A stretch of DNA of 33,731 bases, from contig JAGLRO010000133.1 of NCBI GenBank assembly GCA_023136245.1, forward strand, positions 1 through 33,731, written 5' to 3'. This stretch comes from Candidatus Heimdallarchaeota archaeon (GTDB lineage Archaea > Asgardarchaeota > Heimdallarchaeia > Heimdallarchaeales > Heimdallarchaeaceae). Made by a program: the position numbers and the translations under genes. Each line of letters starts with the position of its first letter. The first letter of the stretch is position 1. Positions 5,493-14,835 of the stretch are shown piece after piece. The notes under the pieces are model-generated. The model ran no database searches. It saw nothing but the letters and a program-made list of their open reading frames with translations, and was not told the DNA's origin.

Positions 5493-5554
5493 TATATATA
5501 TACAAAAATATGAATTGGCGGACCAGGCAGGATTCGAACCTGCGACCAACTACT

Positions 5555-5579
5555 GTCTGCAATGAGTTTTTTACTCATA
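5555..5579 (-). other. tRNA-Arg(GCG) intron at 37/38, canonical bulge-helix-bulge
   Basis: The 25-base intron has a textbook bulge-helix-bulge. Exon bases CTGC pair with intron bases GCAG as the four-pair central helix; a three-base bulge GGT lies on one side and ACA on the other. Cutting after the second base of each bulge gives a seven-base anticodon loop. Inside the intron an ATGAGT/ACTCAT hairpin forms the inner helix. Confidence 0.85.
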
Positions 5580-5595
5580 CCGCAGGCAGCCACTC

Positions 5596-5625
5596 TAGGA
5601 TGTGGAATTTCTCCCAGCACCTTTC
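5596..5625 (-). other. Second tRNA-Arg(GCG) intron, in the D arm (ends approximate)
   Basis: Without removing this segment the D stem would have a G-A mismatch, and no anticodon stem can form with the 3' half. Removing about 30 bases joins the D loop ending in GGATA to GAGTG, giving a D stem of GTTC with GAGT and restoring A21. The sequence TAGA occurs at both edges, so the exact cut sites could slide by up to four bases. The insert contains a five-pair hairpin (TGGGA with TTCCA). Its bulge-helix-bulge is not canonical; a GGAT/ATCC pairing is the best central-helix candidate. Confidence 0.65.
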
Positions 5626-5751
5626 TATCCACTGAACTACTGGCCCTACAATGAATGTTTAAGTTATATCTTTATATTTTTCGATATAATGAATTCTAAG
5701 ATAGTATTCAATAAGAATGAAAAATTATATACGTTAACATGTTGAAATGAG

Positions 5752-6240: not shown

Positions 6241-6526
6241 ATTTGGACGAAGCGAAAAGGCAACTTCGGCATTTGCTGAGGAACCTCCTGACTCCATAAA
6301 AGAGATGAGGATTTAAGTCCTCCACGCGAGAGTGTGGTTCTTGGAACAGAAACGACACGTCCTATATTCAGAGACAATGATGCGATAGAGCAATATAATT
6401 GCTTATTAATTTGCTGAGGAGAGTATAGGAAACGATGAAACGACCAAACATCTTGGAGCAAGCTTGAATAGGGTTCTATTTGGACCGGGTAAAGCGCTTA
6501 GATGAATGTTGCCAGGAAGGTCCTTG
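6241..6526 (+). ncRNA. rnpB: RNase P RNA, archaeal type
   Basis: This is the catalytic RNA that matures the 5' ends of tRNAs. The conserved core is easy to see. CTGACTCC lies in the 5' third, followed by a GAGGA/TCCTC hairpin. The strongly conserved ACAGAAACGACAC is at 6346-6358, and a GATGCG element follows. GGGTAAAGCGCTTAGATGAATG near the 3' end matches the last conserved region of archaeal RNase P RNAs. The ends close correctly: GGAC (6245-6248) with GTCC (6520-6523), and GGCAAC (6259-6264) with GTTGCC (6508-6513), fitting helices P1 and P2. The RNA is about 280 bases, at the small end for type A. An open reading frame entering from the next gene overlaps its 3' end but is not likely to be translated there. 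Confidence 0.92.
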
Positions 6527-6696
6527 ACGGCTTCCTTACAGAATCAGGGGTAATTTCGCATCGTCCAACTACAACATTTTTGAAAACAAAAAAAGCTAAT
6601 ACTTTCATAGTTTTCAATACAATTTTTGGGTCACTCGGTAACTTTATTATACTGCTTTTATTTGTTTTATTTGAGAAAAGAATAGAAGTGCATTCA

Positions 6697-8448
6697 ATGC
6701 TTATGAGGTTACTGTATAGTAGATATTTTATGTTTGGATTAGCCATTTCTATTGTTCTTTCATTTTCAGCACCAATGGTTGTTGGTTCATTAAACAGCGA
6801 AACCAGTCTCCCAACTAGCTCTCCAATTTACTTCTTAAACCAAGAAAATGCTACATTTGTATTTCTATTAACTTCAACTGAGATTGTAAGAGGAGAAAGT
6901 GATCTAATAATCGGTATTCAATTCACCTATGAAAACGGGACTTTCATTACAGATTCAGATATATATTTCAACATCACAAATCCTTCAGCAGAGTTAGTGT
7001 TTGAAAGATCCCTTTTAGTAAATACAACTGAGCTGTTTAATGAGACTGTTATTTGGTCAACTTTCAATAGTCAACCTGATGGAAATTATTCTGTTGTTGC
7101 TGTAGCGAATAGCACAACAACAGATCATTACATAATAAAAAGATCATTTAATCTAAATATTCTCCCCTCAGGTCGTGTTAGAATGTTCTTTCCTTCAAAT
7201 CCAGCATACATACAGCACAGTCAAAGTAATGACGTTAGGTGCTTGATAACAAATATTGGAGGGGAAACAGTAACAAATGTTACTGTAACCAATCAATTTG
7301 ATAAAACAGGGACACAAGGGTCTGTGATAATATCTCATTCTATATTAGATATTGCACTCACAGAAGGAACGACATATGAGGGTTTTATTAGTTTTTATCC
7401 TGATACCTATCTTTACCAGAAATATTCATTTTCAATTTCTTATAGAACAATTGCTGAACCAGAAATTGAATTAATTCTCTCTAGTGACCCAATAGAGATA
7501 ATTGTACCTCCAGATATATTGGTAGATAGCTATTTCTTACCTGAAAATGTAACAATGGGTCGACAATATTCAATGACATTTGATGTCAGAAATAATCAAA
7601 GTGAAGCGCTTAATATTGTTCCACACATTGAGTGTAATAATATTCTTTTCAGTGAAAGCATAAGTGAATCAATTGTAGTAAGTCCTGGGATTCATCATTT
7701 CTCTCTTACAGGAGATCCTCAAGAAGAAGGCAATGTTTTTTTATGGTTCTGGGTAGAACTAGAATGGGAAACAATTGCTGAAACAAAATGGTACTCCACG
7801 ATTCTTCCTTCAGTTATTCATCCAATATTAATCATTCCCAAAGATGATGGGATTGATATATTCAATCCAATTGTAATTTATGGAATAATCCTGGGGATGG
7901 TGTTATTAAGTGTCGCATACTTCTCAAGAGATATTGTGACAAATATAGCTAAAAGGGGGAGAGTCGCCTCAGAAAGTGCATTTGCTGAAGCATCTTATCC
8001 ACTGGATGCAGTAATTCTTGACGGCAGCAATATCGCGTGGGAAGAAAAGAATCTAGCAGATAAGCCAAAAATTAGTAATGTGGAAGCAATGATAAATAGA
8101 CTAAGTAGAGCTAATTTCGCTAAAATCATAACAGTAGCAGATGCTGCATTACGATATCAAATCGATAATCAAAAAAGATTGGATAGATTAGTTAAGGAAG
8201 GAGCGGTTAAAATGCTCCCAGCCAGAGTTGATGGTGATAAATTTATTCTTAGGCTTGCAGAAGAAGAAAATGCAATGATAGTGAGTAATGATATGTTTAA
8301 AGAATTTAGAGAAACAGCGCCTTGGATTGACCAAAGAAGAATACCCTATACAATACTTGATGATGAAGTTTACTTACATCCTACCTCAGCAAAATTGACA
8401 TCAAGAGATTTAAGCGAAGAAGAAGAAAATGAATCAGAATTCATCTAA
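6697..8448 (+). CDS. Membrane-anchored NYN (Zc3h12a-like) RNase with extracellular domain
   Basis: This protein (583 residues from the ATG at 6697) has an N-terminal signal anchor (a hydrophobic stretch around FMFGLAISIVLSFSAP). About 350 residues outside the cell follow, with NxS/T sites and Ig/CARDB-like beta strands. A single membrane helix lies at about 389-411, with a positive stretch (NIAKRGR) on its inner side. The cytoplasmic domain (about 435-565) resembles the NYN/PIN ribonuclease fold of Zc3h12a (Regnase): VILDGSN (D442), D482 in the next strand, DGDKF (D512, D514) and VSND (D532) give the acidic cluster that binds metal in this family. The predicted role is RNA cleavage controlled from outside. 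The reading frame runs upstream to 6502 inside rnpB; the later start is chosen because it gives the signal peptide. Confidence 0.83.
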   Translation: MLMRLLYSRYFMFGLAISIVLSFSAPMVVGSLNSETSLPTSSPIYFLNQENATFVFLLTSTEIVRGESDLIIGIQFTYENGTFITDSDIYFNITNPSAELVFERSLLVNTTELFNETVIWSTFNSQPDGNYSVVAVANSTTTDHYIIKRSFNLNILPSGRVRMFFPSNPAYIQHSQSNDVRCLITNIGGETVTNVTVTNQFDKTGTQGSVIISHSILDIALTEGTTYEGFISFYPDTYLYQKYSFSISYRTIAEPEIELILSSDPIEIIVPPDILVDSYFLPENVTMGRQYSMTFDVRNNQSEALNIVPHIECNNILFSESISESIVVSPGIHHFSLTGDPQEEGNVFLWFWVELEWETIAETKWYSTILPSVIHPILIIPKDDGIDIFNPIVIYGIILGMVLLSVAYFSRDIVTNIAKRGRVASESAFAEASYPLDAVILDGSNIAWEEKNLADKPKISNVEAMINRLSRANFAKIITVADAALRYQIDNQKRLDRLVKEGAVKMLPARVDGDKFILRLAEEENAMIVSNDMFKEFRETAPWIDQRRIPYTILDDEVYLHPTSAKLTSRDLSEEEENESEFI

Positions 8449-8545: not shown

Positions 8546-9262
8546 ATGAATGTGGACCAAAGTTTTAGAGATATGTCAATATTTGAATCTTATTCTCCTA
8601 TTAAACCACAAATTGACAATCTTCCACAAGATTACTTTTATAGCAATGACTATGATTATTTGACACTTCCAGAGGTCCAGTTATTATTGGCTTTATCAGA
8701 TTCTCAATTTTCTTATTCCTTTTCAGGACTAAGGAAAATGACATCACTACATCAACATCAGCTGAGTAAAGCTCTCAAGAGACTTCAAGATAGAGATTAT
8801 TTAATTAAGAGCGAAAACGGAACTTATGAATTGACAGATTCAGGAAGCAAATATACTCGAGAACTACTTAATGATCTTGTTAATAAAAAAGCAATTATTA
8901 TTGAAAGTAGTCGTTATTATACTAAAAGGAAGAAACTCAAATTTATCCCACCATTCGAACGTGAGACATTGGTAGACAATTTTGAAGGAAGATGGTTTGG
9001 AGATTTCAGATATCTTTATAAAAAAGATGCAAATCAAAACATAGAATTATGCTGGGAGGATAAAACCGGTAATAGAGTACACATTTACATAAATCAAGTA
9101 GGAGAAGTAGATGTGGAATATAGATCTTTGCAACCAGATTACTCAAATTTTCAAAGGATAACAAATTGGATAAGAAATGATGTTTCAAATCAAAGTGATG
9201 TTTCCATACACATTATTGAACAGGAAATAAGAGAAAACATGAATAAGATACCATACAACTAA
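8546..9262 (+). CDS. MarR-like winged-helix regulator, 238 aa
   Basis: Residues about 45-115 form a winged helix: a helix with LPEVQLLLALSDS, then the helix-turn-helix HQHQLSKALKRLQDRDYL and a wing ending in GTYELTDSG. This is the MarR/PadR style of DNA-binding domain. The last 100 residues form an unrecognised alpha/beta domain with many aromatic residues (GRWFGDFRYLY, then HIYINQVGEVDVEYR), perhaps ligand-binding or dimerising. GTGAT at 8531-8535 is the ribosome-binding site for the ATG at 8546. It lies 97 bases after the NYN-RNase gene on the same strand, so the two could share control, but a T-rich gap with its own promoter-like elements separates them. Confidence 0.75.
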   Translation: MNVDQSFRDMSIFESYSPIKPQIDNLPQDYFYSNDYDYLTLPEVQLLLALSDSQFSYSFSGLRKMTSLHQHQLSKALKRLQDRDYLIKSENGTYELTDSGSKYTRELLNDLVNKKAIIIESSRYYTKRKKLKFIPPFERETLVDNFEGRWFGDFRYLYKKDANQNIELCWEDKTGNRVHIYINQVGEVDVEYRSLQPDYSNFQRITNWIRNDVSNQSDVSIHIIEQEIRENMNKIPYN

Positions 9263-9324: not shown

Positions 9325-9987
9325 ATGAATAATCCAAATTTCAACAGGATGACAAATGACCCCACTATGGAACTCAAACATGGTACTACAACTGTTGCTC
9401 TGCAATTCAAGGGAGGTGTGGCAGCAGCAGCAGACCGAAGAGCTTCAATGGGTACTTTTGTAGCATCAAAGAAAGCTGAAAAATTACACGAGTTAAACAA
9501 GTTTACAATGGCGACAATTGCTGGAATGGTTTCAGACGCACAATATCTAGTAAATCTGACAAGAGCAAACATAAACCTATATGAACTTGGAAGAGGATAT
9601 GCACCAACAACAAAGATGGCTGGAAACCTACTAGCGTCAATAATGTATGAGCAGTATAGAAGTTATTTTCCTTACTGGGTTAACATGCTAGTAATTGGTT
9701 TAGATGATGAAGGCCCACATGTTTATACTCTAGATATGGCTGGTGGAATCGGTGATGAAGACTTCGCGTCTACTGGTTCAGGCTCTCCAGTTGCATACGG
9801 TGTATTAGAATCCCAATGGAAACAAAATCTAACTGAAGAAGAAGGTATTGCAATTGCCATAAAAGCACTTACTACAGCTATAAGCAGAGATTCTGCTACA
9901 GGTGATGGAATGGATGTTGCAATAGTCAACAAAAAAGGAATCAAAAGGCTTACACCTGAAGAAGTGAAAGCTGTTCAGGAGGCATAA
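9325..9987 (+). CDS. psmB: Proteasome beta subunit (catalytic)
   Basis: This is the N-terminal-nucleophile peptidase of the 20S proteasome. A 20-residue propeptide ends in HG, so processing exposes T21 of TTTVALQF as the nucleophile. The mature Asp17 (D37 in AAAADRR) and Lys33 (K53 in KKAEKL) are present, and the SGSP and SRDSATGDG segments near the C-terminus match the family. It is therefore an active subunit. GAGGTAA just before the ATG is the ribosome-binding site; an ATG four bases upstream is out of frame. The alpha subunit gene follows with two bases between them, so both come from one transcript. Confidence 0.96.
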   Translation: MNNPNFNRMTNDPTMELKHGTTTVALQFKGGVAAAADRRASMGTFVASKKAEKLHELNKFTMATIAGMVSDAQYLVNLTRANINLYELGRGYAPTTKMAGNLLASIMYEQYRSYFPYWVNMLVIGLDDEGPHVYTLDMAGGIGDEDFASTGSGSPVAYGVLESQWKQNLTEEEGIAIAIKALTTAISRDSATGDGMDVAIVNKKGIKRLTPEEVKAVQEA

Positions 9988-9989
9988 AA

Positions 9990-10646
9990 ATGTTAGGACC
10001 ACAATCAATGGGATATGATAGAACACCTATTATGTATTCTCCTGAAGGACGTATAATCCAAACTGAATACGCTAGAGAATCTGTTCGAAGGGGAAGCATT
10101 GCGATAGGCATTAAAAGTAAAAATGGTTTAGTTTTAGCAGGATTACTCCGAGTCGTTGATCTGGAAGAACCTGACCGGAAAATTCATAAAATTTCAGATA
10201 CAATCCAAGCAATTTTTGCAGGAGTAGCAGCAGATGGCCGAGTATTAATCAGTAGAGCTAGACTTGAAGCAGAAATATTTAGATTAACATATACTGTACC
10301 TATGGACCTTCGCGGTTTAGCAGTGAAAATTGGAGATTTAATACAAGTTTTCACACAACAAGGAGGTCTTAGGCCTTTTGGAGTTGGAATGTTATTTGGA
10401 GGAATAGATGAAACAGGTCCAAGCCTTCAATTTGTTGATCCAGGTGGTGGAGTAAAATCTTGTAAAGCAAAAGCAATGGGTGATGGTGACTCTGAAGCTA
10501 TAGTTTTTCTTAAGGAAAAATACAATGATGATCTAACCACAGCTCAAATGGTTGATATAGCCAAAGAAGCTATAAAGAAGGCCGCCAGAGATATTGAATT
10601 AACTGAAGAAAGCATTGCAATTGAAGTTATGCCTTATAAAGCATAA
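9990..10646 (+). CDS. psmA: Proteasome alpha subunit
   Basis: The N-terminus YDRTPIMYSPEGR, then IQTEYARESVRRGS, is the signature of alpha subunits, which form the gate rings of the 20S particle. The catalytic threonine context of beta subunits is absent. The lysine expected in the pocket that docks the C-terminal tails of the unfoldase is in the KIHKISD region. At 218 residues it is shorter than most archaeal alpha subunits (about 235-260), ending soon after the last strand and lacking the usual acidic C-terminal tail. A GGAGG at 9976-9981 inside the end of psmB drives its translation, so the two subunits are coupled. Confidence 0.95.
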   Translation: MLGPQSMGYDRTPIMYSPEGRIIQTEYARESVRRGSIAIGIKSKNGLVLAGLLRVVDLEEPDRKIHKISDTIQAIFAGVAADGRVLISRARLEAEIFRLTYTVPMDLRGLAVKIGDLIQVFTQQGGLRPFGVGMLFGGIDETGPSLQFVDPGGGVKSCKAKAMGDGDSEAIVFLKEKYNDDLTTAQMVDIAKEAIKKAARDIELTEESIAIEVMPYKA

Positions 10647-10680: not shown

Positions 10681-10730
10681 TAATATAAATGTATAAATAT
10701 ATTTCAGCAGTAGATAGTTTCAGATTTTAT

Positions 10731-11768
10731 ATGAGAGTATATCGAACTGATGCAATGAAAATTGAATCAAAAGATTGGAAAATTGTCTGTGATAGTACAA
10801 ATTCTACTTTTCATCCTTTGGTGTTCTATAGTCATGCTCATTCCGATCACATTCCAAGAAAACTTCCTAAAACTGAAATTATTAGCTCTCATATAACTAA
10901 ATCACTAATCAAGAATTTTGTTAAAAATTTCTCTGAAACATCATTTTATGATTCTTACTCTATAGGTAATACTAGTTTTGAACAAAAATCTAGCGGTCAT
11001 ATAATTGGTTCCACTGCTTTGTTTATTGATTCTGATGAAGGGAAGGTAATCTATACAGGAGATGTATCCATCCGAAATAAAGGATTCTTGGATCCTTTCA
11101 AACCTGAGAAGTGTGATATATTAATTGTAGAAAGTACTTTTGGAAGTCCGGAATATGTTTTTCCCTCATACGAAGAAGAGATTAAGAAGACACAAGAGCA
11201 GATTTTGGAATACTTAGATAACAATGTACCTGTTGTTCTCATGGGATACGCTTTAGGAAAAGCTCAAATGCTTTATCATGCTTTTTCTGATCTATCTTCT
11301 AATGTTGTTTTACACGGTTCAAACTACAACATCAATTCTATTCTACAGTCTGAAAATATAGATCACTCGATTCAAGCAGCTTCCTATACTGAAGCTAAAG
11401 AAGATAATTTATTTACAAAGAAAGGAGATTGGATACTTTTTACACCACTAAAATCAGGAAGAGATCCTTTTTTCTCTTTTCTTAAAAACAAGTATGGAGC
11501 AAAACTCTTTGCGTTTTCAGGATGGTGCTTATCTTCTAATTATAAATACAGAATGAATGTTGACCATGCAATTACAATATCTGATCATGCAGATTATTCA
11601 GAGTTATTACAGATTTGTAGAGAATGTGATCCAGATCAAATATACACAGTATATGGTTATAGTGAAAGATTTGCTGGAGAATTAAGAAGAGAAGGATTCA
11701 CTGCATTTCCTCTTTCAAAACAGACAATTCTTGATTCTTATTTTAATAAATCAGTAAATAGTAATTAA
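10731..11768 (+). CDS. Metallo-beta-lactamase-fold nuclease, mRNA 3'-end-processing/ligase-associated type
   Basis: The 345-residue protein has the metallo-beta-lactamase nuclease motifs: HAHSDH (H35 to H40), SGHIIGS (H90) and YTGD (D111), which together hold the two metals. A further ISDHADY near the end matches the beta-CASP-type C-terminal histidine motif. The segment ILIVESTFGSP followed by MGYALGKAQ is typical of the COG1236-like exonucleases that act on RNA 3' ends or accompany DNA ligases. Whether the substrate is RNA or DNA cannot be told. The start is uncertain: a TATAAATA lies at 10692-10699, so ATG 10731 (or 10755) is preferred over ATG 10689. Its end overlaps the opposite-strand orphan by 18 bases. 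Confidence 0.85.
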   Translation: MRVYRTDAMKIESKDWKIVCDSTNSTFHPLVFYSHAHSDHIPRKLPKTEIISSHITKSLIKNFVKNFSETSFYDSYSIGNTSFEQKSSGHIIGSTALFIDSDEGKVIYTGDVSIRNKGFLDPFKPEKCDILIVESTFGSPEYVFPSYEEEIKKTQEQILEYLDNNVPVVLMGYALGKAQMLYHAFSDLSSNVVLHGSNYNINSILQSENIDHSIQAASYTEAKEDNLFTKKGDWILFTPLKSGRDPFFSFLKNKYGAKLFAFSGWCLSSNYKYRMNVDHAITISDHADYSELLQICRECDPDQIYTVYGYSERFAGELRREGFTAFPLSKQTILDSYFNKSVNSN

Positions 11769-12270: not shown

Positions 12271-14835
12271 CTACCCAAAGATATATTTCATCTCTTTTCT
12301 ATTTGAATATCTTGACAGAAGTCTATCAAAAAATGAAACATGCTTTTTCATCAAAAATCTTGGAATATCTGAATAAACAAACATAAAATCAACTTTTGTT
12401 CTGTCAATCTTAGTTGTTGTTTCTTTGATTTTATACGTAATCTTGCTCTTTGTAGCATCTACTAGAGTACAGGCAATTCCCGTCTCAATTTCTTCCTTTG
12501 TGAATATTATTACCGATTGACCAATGACAGATTTCAAGAGATTTGTCTGAATATCTATCTTGTCTTTTGAAAATCTAAGCAATACTGGGGGAAGATCAAC
12601 AAATAACTCACTACCCTTCAATTTAAGTTTCTTTGTTTTCTTTGCTTCATCTACTTCGAATGTAAACTCAGAAGATGATAAGCTATCATTCATCTTAAAA
12701 TCAAGTAATTTTGCCTTTCTATCTGCTCCTTCCATATAGAAGAATATATCTTGATCAATGAATTTATCAAAATATTTTAGTGGCTTACCTGTATAGTTCT
12801 TCTCGAAAGTTTCAGGATCTTCTTCTAATGATTCAAAAACGAAGACAGGTTTATTGTTTTTCTTTAATGTTTTCCAAGATTTTAATTTACCAATTTGTCC
12901 ATTTTTAAAGAGATATTTCTCATCTATTTTAGCATCATGAATTGTATAATCAGAGATTAGAATCTGATTTTCTTCTTCTTTATTTTTTACTCTTAAGAGT
13001 AATGGTTGGCAAATTGTATCGCTCACATGAACTCCAATAACATTACCTTCTACTTGATGATCAAAGATGTGGTCATATGCTACAATGCTTCTTCCTTCTA
13101 GAATTTTAAGAAGTTCATTCAGCTTTGTTATTTCTAGGAAAGATCTAACACCTTCTTCACCATAAAAATCATTATATTTTTCTGAAACTAATTCAGAGAA
13201 CTGTTCTCGTTTCTTTGTTAAATTTCTGATTGCTTTTTTCCTTAAGAAATTAGGCAATAATAACCAATATGGTAACAAAGCTCCTTTTATAGGGGATAAT
13301 TCATCATCCACTACTGCTACGATCCTATATGCTGTTCTTGGATGAGACATGAATATATTTGCAAACATATCCCACCTTCCAGGTCTATACATATGTCTGT
13401 ATAGTCTAATTGCTGCTTCTCCTCTAAATCGGAGTTTTTCTTCCTCAGTAAACTCTTTACCTGTAAGCAATTGAACATTTAAACCAAAATCACCAGCAAT
13501 TCCTTGATAAAAACCTTCGAGTTTATATAGTACTTGTGCTAGCTGGGTTCCGTATCCAGCCTTCTTCGTTTGAAGGTCAGCATCTCCCTCTAGTATTCTT
13601 ACGAAAATCAGAAGGAATGCAACTATCCCATAGCTTATCAAGAAATATATACCAAAAGGCATTAAGTCTTTGACAACTGCATAATCTAGAGTTGTTGCAG
13701 GTAAAAGAAATGCTTTTTTGATAATCATCTCCAATGAAGCTATTAACTGTAACCAAACAATATGGATTCTCTGATTATGGGCTAATTCATGTGCTACAAT
13801 TCCTCTGATATCATCATCAGTGAAATCATCTAAACTGGAAGAAATGAGTACTATCCTCTGATCAAAAAATGGTCCAAATGCCATAGCATTCAATATGGGA
13901 GCTTCAACGAATCCAGATTTGACATTTCTTTTAATTCCAAGTTGATTTTTTACTTCTTCAACCAATTTAAGAACTCTTTTATCATCTGTTTGTTTGATTC
14001 CAAGTAAGAAAGTTATCAGCCAGCCTGAAACAAAATACATTAGGAAAGATAATAAAATAACAATCTCCCAAGGTCCCAGAGAAAGGAAAATAACTCTTTT
14101 GACTATTAAAGCATCTGTTTTAGAAAGAATACTGAATATATCTAGGATGTAGGGATTTGATACTGCAAAGCCTCCTTCTAGACCTCCACGCATTATTATC
14201 TCTTGATTTGGATTACTCATAAATAGTGCATGATCATACAATCCAGGATAATTCCAAGTAAGATTATCGAAACCTTCAATGAAATTGCCTGTAGTCCATA
14301 AGACAAGATAAGCAAAAGCAAATAAGGTTAAATACAATATTTGTGGAGACATTAATCTACTTACTAAAACGAATTTCTTACCAAAGAAAATCAATGCCAT
14401 TATTAAGAAAACATAGATCATTACATTGTATGACCAACCAAGAAACCTTTGTTCTTTTTCACCAGTAACCATTTCGTATATTTTATCTCCAACTGTACCT
14501 ACCAGTAAAACGAAGTAAGTAGCAACTGAAGTTATCATTAATTCTCTCCACACCGGAGATTCACGTAATTGATAGGTTTGGTATAATGCTAAAACAAAGA
14601 AACTTAATGCTACTGCAAGTACCCAAGCACTCAAGAAAACAAGTACTAATCCAAATGTTAATCCGATAAATGCTAGCATCAAGTTTTCTGATGTAGTCCC
14701 ATGTTGTATTTTTGTTTTAATTTCTGATATAAGAAATAGCAAACCTAGTAATGCTATAACAAGACCAATTATTACAGTGATATCAAAGGAACTAATTTTG
14801 TTCCATATATCAATGAAAAAGTCAGTAGGAGACAT
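12271..14835 (-). CDS. M48-family membrane metalloprotease with large C-terminal extension
   Basis: The 854-residue protein is a zinc peptidase of the M48 (Ste24/HtpX) type. The catalytic HELAH is at 349-353, and the third zinc ligand lies in EGDAD (E416 with D420). Six or more membrane helices surround it: about 20-36, 52-84, 100-115, 137-151, 165-182, 250-280 and 393-413. M48 proteases usually have 290-450 residues, and the part after about residue 540 is extra: a soluble region of some 300 residues rich in beta strands and charged stretches that I do not recognise. A TATA-like ATTTAAA lies about 25 bases upstream of the ATG. Likely roles are membrane-protein quality control or processing of exported proteins. 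Confidence 0.88.
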   Translation of the reverse strand: MSPTDFFIDIWNKISSFDITVIIGLVIALLGLLFLISEIKTKIQHGTTSENLMLAFIGLTFGLVLVFLSAWVLAVALSFFVLALYQTYQLRESPVWRELMITSVATYFVLLVGTVGDKIYEMVTGEKEQRFLGWSYNVMIYVFLIMALIFFGKKFVLVSRLMSPQILYLTLFAFAYLVLWTTGNFIEGFDNLTWNYPGLYDHALFMSNPNQEIIMRGGLEGGFAVSNPYILDIFSILSKTDALIVKRVIFLSLGPWEIVILLSFLMYFVSGWLITFLLGIKQTDDKRVLKLVEEVKNQLGIKRNVKSGFVEAPILNAMAFGPFFDQRIVLISSSLDDFTDDDIRGIVAHELAHNQRIHIVWLQLIASLEMIIKKAFLLPATTLDYAVVKDLMPFGIYFLISYGIVAFLLIFVRILEGDADLQTKKAGYGTQLAQVLYKLEGFYQGIAGDFGLNVQLLTGKEFTEEEKLRFRGEAAIRLYRHMYRPGRWDMFANIFMSHPRTAYRIVAVVDDELSPIKGALLPYWLLLPNFLRKKAIRNLTKKREQFSELVSEKYNDFYGEEGVRSFLEITKLNELLKILEGRSIVAYDHIFDHQVEGNVIGVHVSDTICQPLLLRVKNKEEENQILISDYTIHDAKIDEKYLFKNGQIGKLKSWKTLKKNNKPVFVFESLEEDPETFEKNYTGKPLKYFDKFIDQDIFFYMEGADRKAKLLDFKMNDSLSSSEFTFEVDEAKKTKKLKLKGSELFVDLPPVLLRFSKDKIDIQTNLLKSVIGQSVIIFTKEEIETGIACTLVDATKSKITYKIKETTTKIDRTKVDFMFVYSDIPRFLMKKHVSFFDRLLSRYSNRKEMKYIFG

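Follow-up and report, generated by a model that had tools for sequence, protein, structure and literature searches.

The eukaryotic NYN ribonucleases are the described proteins most comparable to the domain reported here. ZC3H12A-D (Regnase/MCPIP) have an NYN/PIN fold together with a CCCH zinc finger, KHNYN carries an NYN and a KH domain, and PRORP, the protein-only RNase P, has a related NYN/PIN-type nuclease and a PPR domain. In layout, two membrane ribonucleases of other folds are also relevant. IRE1 (ERN1) has an extracytoplasmic beta-rich region, one transmembrane (TM) helix and a cytoplasmic part with a kinase and a KEN RNase. RNase Y, a membrane-tethered RNase on the inner face, is a KH-HD protein that is anchored N-terminally and lacks an ectodomain. 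To our knowledge, no archaeal transmembrane receptor with a terminal RNase has been described, and a literature search, which covered part of the literature, found no paper on the protein reported here.

The NYN active site has been described as a tetra-Asp arrangement, formed by D443, D524, D525 and D543 in KHNYN and by D195, D279, D280 and D298 in ZC3H12B (PMC12709174), while D225 and D226 are the catalytic Asp residues of Regnase-1 (PMC4772114). The canonical second Asp is Regnase D225, equivalent to KHNYN D524 and ZC3H12B D279 (PMC4772114, PMC12709174). Activity of the Regnase-1 PIN domain requires a weak head-to-tail dimerisation (Kd ~1e-4 M), P212 and R214 are required for both dimerisation and activity, and the active site receives K184 and R214 from the second chain (PMC4772114).

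The window, that is the whole stretch of 33,731 nucleotides analysed here, is a single contig from a 2.27-Mb Asgard assembly. It encodes a 583-aa protein in which an NYN domain is predicted to follow a signal segment, a beta-rich ectodomain and a TM helix (Table 1). The NYN domain family is known; its union with signal, ectodomain and TM segment was found in one Heimdallarchaeia-level order.

Table 1. Positions of the NYN gene, its predicted protein segments and its neighbours in the window.
Feature	Position	Strand	Evidence and remarks
RNase P RNA gene	6248..6563	+	RF00373, 159 bits, E=1e-45; directly 5' of the NYN gene
TATA-like box, conserved	6644..6656	+	About 45 nt 5' of the NYN start codon; footprint TTATTA in 9 aligned loci
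Gene for membrane-anchored NYN (Zc3h12a-like) putative ribonuclease	6697..8448	+	583 aa; PF11977 E=3e-17; 16 aligned orthologues; 28 genomes of the order
Predicted signal peptide or signal anchor, residues 1-30	6697..6786	+	Hydrophobic 11-29, KD 2.14; AF2 helix 3-24
Predicted extracytoplasmic region, residues ~50-384	6844..7848	+	Three beta-sandwich domains with N-glycosylation sequons; AF2
Predicted single TM helix, residues 392-410	7870..7926	+	KD 2.29; AF2 helix 391-420
NYN putative ribonuclease domain, residues 436-561	8002..8379	+	PF11977; D442, N445, D482, D514, N531 and D532 invariant in 28 membrane members
Winged-helix protein gene	8546..9262	+	MarR_2 E=6e-4, under cut-off; conserved promoter-like box GTCATTATA just upstream (footprint)
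Proteasome beta gene	9325..9987	+	PF00227 E=6.5e-53; conserved neighbour
Proteasome alpha gene	9990..10646	+	PF00227 E=2.1e-43, PF10584; conserved neighbour

Reading Frame and Start Codon

The protein was 47-58% identical across the 16 orthologues of the alignment, and a search of NCBIfam returned no family for it. Its frame extends open upstream to an ATG at 6502 (a 648-codon frame), which was rejected as the start; it falls within the RNase P RNA gene and is without conservation. The orthologues begin at the Met equivalent to 6697, after a conserved GAATAGAAGTG-like stretch. The start at 6697, as set in the first-pass annotation, is therefore correct, given the Met position of the orthologues, the conserved DNA just before it and the location of the upstream ATG inside the RNase P RNA.

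Ectodomain and Membrane Topology

Both hydrophobic segments (residues 11-29 and 392-410) were present in every complete orthologue except L024, in which the N-terminal segment scored under the threshold. The residues S410-R411-D412, directly after the TM helix, were invariant in the alignment of family f1 orthologues and are followed by a basic flank. In the full-length AF2 model, the blocks from residue 50 to 380 were all beta, mostly with pLDDT of 77-93, and their strand groups fit three consecutive sandwiches. The middle sandwich gave a CARDB match at residues 168-236 (E=0.004), under the Pfam cut-off. Complement, macroglobulin and central-apparatus proteins matched the full-length model in Foldseek at a TMq of about 0.16; these are generic matches of tandem Ig-like repeats, and no function was inferred from them. 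Neither a ligand-binding site nor any other feature of a sensor was identified in the ectodomain, which counts against control of the NYN domain from outside.

N-glycosylation sequons, summed over 32 frames and compared with shuffles, numbered 329 at ectodomain positions against 168 expected, whereas the cytoplasmic part had 16 against 32 expected, with depletion in the NYN domain. Sequons were not enriched in the soluble relatives among the scored frames (L006, L058, L081). Basic residues sit before the first hydrophobic segment and after the second, i.e., on the inner side. These counts and flanks argue for a topology with the beta region outside and the NYN domain inside, and the ectodomain itself is presumably glycosylated. 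An outside beta-rich region, one membrane helix and an inside RNase domain had been proposed in the first-pass annotation; AF2, hydrophobicity, sequons and Pfam all predict this arrangement, and the TM segment is conserved in the orthologues.

The same annotation had called this architecture IRE1-like, with an RNase fold of its own. The layout is indeed that of IRE1 by prediction, with an extracytoplasmic beta-rich region, one TM helix and a cytoplasmic RNase-type domain, and the fold does differ. However, Pfam gave only the NYN match and the weak CARDB match, hence no kinase domain, and the KEN RNase (PF06479) had no match in the protein, and none above its cut-off in any of the 228 Asgard genomes. 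Any likeness to IRE1 is therefore confined to layout, for which "IRE1-like" is a fair analogy.

The NYN Domain and Its Putative Active Site

The C-terminal domain matched PF11977 (RNase_Zc3h12a) in Pfam with E=3.1e-17 and 63.2 bits, against a curated cut-off of 23. The NYN segment of the full-length AF2 model was poor, probably because the alignment was too uniform in that part; modelled alone from 18 sequences, the domain reached a pLDDT of 84.4 and a pTM of 0.79. The top 23 Foldseek matches of this domain model were all ZC3H12A, ZC3H12B, ZC3H12C or KHNYN, with TM-scores of 0.65-0.76 by query length. ZC3H12B (E 8e-9) and ZC3H12C were the best PDB matches, Regnase-1 and KHNYN also stood among the 23, and PRORP2 ranked below them (6.5e-6). 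A profile built from 32 Asgard NYN domains matched ZC3H12C at 7.6e-16, KHNYN at 2e-12 and PRORP2 at 5e-10. By profile and modelled fold, the domain is a Zc3h12a-like member of the NYN family with one canonical metal ligand altered, in agreement with the Regnase-like assignment made earlier.

With ZC3H12A-D the protein shares the NYN/PIN fold, D442, D514, D532, N445 and a basic residue at the R214-equivalent position. It differs in its signal, ectodomain and TM segment, in having Gly at the D225 position and Asp at 482, and in lacking the CCCH zinc finger. The Pfam search found no such finger near the NYN domain, the 648-codon frame holds two Cys, and the protein is for this reason not a Regnase proper. 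KHNYN and related eukaryotic NYN RNases share the NYN domain and are the next-best structural matches; unlike KHNYN, the window protein lacks a KH domain, spans the membrane and has an incomplete tetra-Asp. The soluble archaeal NYN proteins (~350 aa, and TPR-NYN proteins in Asgard) share the D482-type pattern, with NYN identity of up to 40%, but have no signal, ectodomain or TM segment.

In the alignments, D442, D514 and D532 correspond to the first, third and fourth tetra-Asp ligands of Regnase and KHNYN, whereas the second position (Regnase D225) is Gly513. D482 aligns with the Pro of the ZC3H12 VPAW stretch, i.e., outside the canonical tetra-Asp, yet it is among the six residues invariant in all 28 membrane members (Table 1), whose NYN identity to the window protein goes down to 44%. 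D512 varied, being Asp in 19 of the 28. The "full set" of acidic residues read from the sequence at first is thus only partly canonical: D442, D514 and D532 match ligand positions, D482 is conserved at a non-canonical site, the second ligand is replaced by Gly and D512 is not conserved. In the Regnase-matching domain model, D442 and D482 coincide with beta strands or follow them directly, D514 is the beginning of a helix and D532 comes soon after a short strand. It is plausible from this model that the four acids share one site, as had been supposed, and D482 may stand in for the ligand missing at Gly513.

The loss of a canonical ligand counts against an RNase reading, and the domain might instead serve as an RNA-binding or scaffold domain and not as a nuclease. 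Because the remaining three tetra-Asp residues, the two Asn and D482 do not vary among 28 divergent members, this is extremely improbable, and the conserved residues point to RNase activity of the domain.

Among 109 Asgard NYN domains, Asp occurred only at the 482 position in 61, only at the 513 position in 45, at neither in 3 and at both in none, so that 106 of the 109 have Asp at exactly one of the two. Twelve further relatives, about eight from outside the phylum and the rest Asgard, comprised 11 of the D482 type and one with neither. An alternative active-site arrangement is indicated, in which D482 would replace the D225-type Asp, and which is widespread among archaeal NYN proteins. On the tree, two to three changes suffice for the exchange between the two positions; repeated coevolution was considered and rejected, the pattern being mostly shared descent. 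The Asgard NYN domains (L001-L144) fall into two old active-site types, and the eukaryotic Regnase pattern matches just one of them.

Genomic Neighbourhood

In the window's family, the gene order RNase P RNA, NYN, winged helix, proteasome beta and proteasome alpha was largely fixed, as was the following order of a metallo-beta-lactamase gene, a small ORF (-) and an M48-type peptidase gene. The first-pass annotation had placed the gene directly after the RNase P RNA gene and before a winged-helix regulator. The former holds in 15 of the 15 family loci with enough upstream sequence (the window and 14/14 others). The latter adjacency is likewise conserved, but it does not imply a shared operon: a conserved promoter-like box of its own precedes each of the two genes, NYN and winged-helix, which are thus probably separate transcription units. 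For the same reason a single operon of NYN, winged-helix and proteasome genes was unsupported. The RNase P RNA gene also appears to be a transcription unit separate from the NYN gene. Such a setting among proteostasis or RNA-decay genes hints at a joint function but does not prove one.

The constant RNase P RNA neighbour and the PRORP2 matches would fit a factor for tRNA or RNase P-related processing, with an NYN domain akin to the PRORP nuclease. This is very improbable, because ZC3H12 and KHNYN outscore PRORP in both profile and Foldseek comparisons, and the 583-aa protein had no Pfam match to a PPR domain or to the PRORP nuclease domain PF16953. Moreover, genes for RNase P RNA and for the Rpp29 subunit are present, the NYN gene has its own promoter-like box, and RNase P RNA was not adjacent to NYN in the loci of families f2-f4 tested.

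In the other families, a membrane NYN copy of f2 (L048) is divergent from the proteasome alpha and beta genes, a PAC2-family gene adjoins the membrane NYN gene in f3 (L069), and a PIN-like gene is close to it in f3 and several f4 loci. These PIN-like proteins of ~610 aa (L050:334-2154, L069:159-2021, and similar in L051, L070 and L074) are weakly similar to members of the RNA ligase partner family.

Several other features of the window were recorded. The winged-helix protein has an uncharacterised C-terminal half and a fixed position between the NYN and proteasome genes. The metallo-beta-lactamase nuclease-like protein after proteasome alpha (10689-11768) resembles a ligase-associated exonuclease (TIGR04122 E 2.5e-42, under its cut-off). 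An 854-aa M48/M56-type metallopeptidase (HtpX/BlaR1-like; 12271-14835, -) is conserved near the proteasome genes. A 128-nt Rfam tRNA match of 38 bits (5519-5646, -), for which ARAGORN makes no call, is possibly an intron-containing tRNA; relatives have an ordinary tRNA nearby.

Possible Mode of Action

The reading we prefer, and to which we give an even chance, is that of a membrane-tethered endoribonuclease that acts on RNA at the inner face of the membrane, with clustering driven by the ectodomain as its probable means of control. The signal segment would export about 350 residues of glycosylated beta-sandwich domains, while the TM helix and a basic linker of about 25 residues would keep the Regnase-type NYN domain at the inner face, where it would cleave RNA via metal ions bound by D442, D514, D532 and probably D482. 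The ectodomain would set this activity, the state of the envelope or surface bringing chains together.

In the profile alignment, Regnase-1 P212, R214 and K184 correspond to P508, R510 and R486. The R510 position was R or K in 27 of the 28 membrane members and Gly in 64 of 93 other NYN proteins; R519 and R548 were invariant in the 28, all of which have a basic residue at the R538 position. Given this basic equivalent of Regnase R214 and the dimerisation that Regnase requires, clustering in the membrane could turn the NYN enzyme on through dimerisation. By analogy, the natural substrates may be membrane-near RNAs, e.g., mRNAs of secreted and membrane proteins. This guess is weakened by RNase Y mutants, in which the stabilisation of mRNAs showed no correlation with where their protein products are located (PMC11313650).

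The main rival, which is strong and a real possibility, is a constitutive membrane-tethered RNase, in which the TM segment merely places general RNA cleavage and the ectodomain is structural or contacts the S-layer, with no signalling. RNase Y provides the precedent (PMC11313650, PMC7029143), being tethered and working without a sensor domain (PMC11313650). The gene order, with RNase P RNA and the proteasome genes as neighbours, is housekeeping-like, and close orthologues were 87% identical in the NYN domain against 40-56% in the ectodomain; this stronger constraint on the NYN domain also fits the preferred reading. A plain tether, however, would have no need of ~350 residues of folded ectodomain, which are kept in all four families. 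The window protein, if an RNase, is like RNase Y in acting from the inner membrane face; it differs in its unrelated fold and its ectodomain, and Pfam found neither KH nor HD domains. If it served only as a tether, the protein would still be an archaeal counterpart of the membrane-bound RNase Y, built on an unrelated fold.

Beyond the preferred clustering-controlled enzyme lies a doubtful but more specific proposal, an IRE1-like receptor RNase that arose independently in Heimdallarchaeia from a Regnase-type NYN domain. Surface or envelope stress would cluster the receptor, NYN domains would dimerise and cut membrane-proximal mRNAs, and the neighbouring proteasome genes would represent the protein-side arm of that response. 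If the RNase were controlled from outside, the protein would be a convergent counterpart of IRE1, and a one-protein path from the cell surface to RNA decay would exist in a lineage near the ancestor of eukaryotes.

Distribution

PF11977 was present in 95 of 228 Asgard genomes. The survey of these genomes suggested in the first-pass annotation recovered the full membrane architecture in 28, all among the 36 genomes of the window's order and spread over all four of its families; none was found in the other 192. The genomes of the order without the gene are incomplete assemblies, and a few members are cut by contig ends (e.g., L010, L012, L169). In one genome of family f2 the membrane gene is present as two diverged copies (L048, L049). 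With its fixed synteny and presence in 28/36 genomes, the gene behaves as a core gene. No membrane architecture was found in 165 non-Asgard archaeal genomes, where the retrieved NYN relatives were soluble proteins without a TM segment (~350-aa, short single-domain and ~515-aa proteins).

A receptor-like layout, together with the antiviral restriction by animal NYN RNases such as KHNYN (PMC12709174), might suggest a defence receptor, in which a virus met at the cell surface would set off RNA cleavage along with dormancy or death. It is very improbable, as the gene sits in a conserved locus of fixed synteny, unlike mobile defence genes, and no relatives were found in three scans of viral contigs or in the plasmids scanned. 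Assignment to a defence system was rejected, there being no PADLOC match.

Other NYN-containing architectures were also observed. Two genomes of the window's order encode ~570-aa proteins with a degenerate NYN-like C-terminus (L164:969-2678 and L165:808-2508), which matched the archaeal NYN profile with E of 3e-11 and 5e-10, respectively, the former without a Pfam match. In L029, L047 and L064, which come from further Asgard genomes (a Lokiarchaeota record among them), TPR repeats are fused to NYN, and in an Asgard genome a 1334-aa helicase of the superfamily 1 type (AAA_11/AAA_12; L057:3860-7861, -) carries NYN at its C-terminus.
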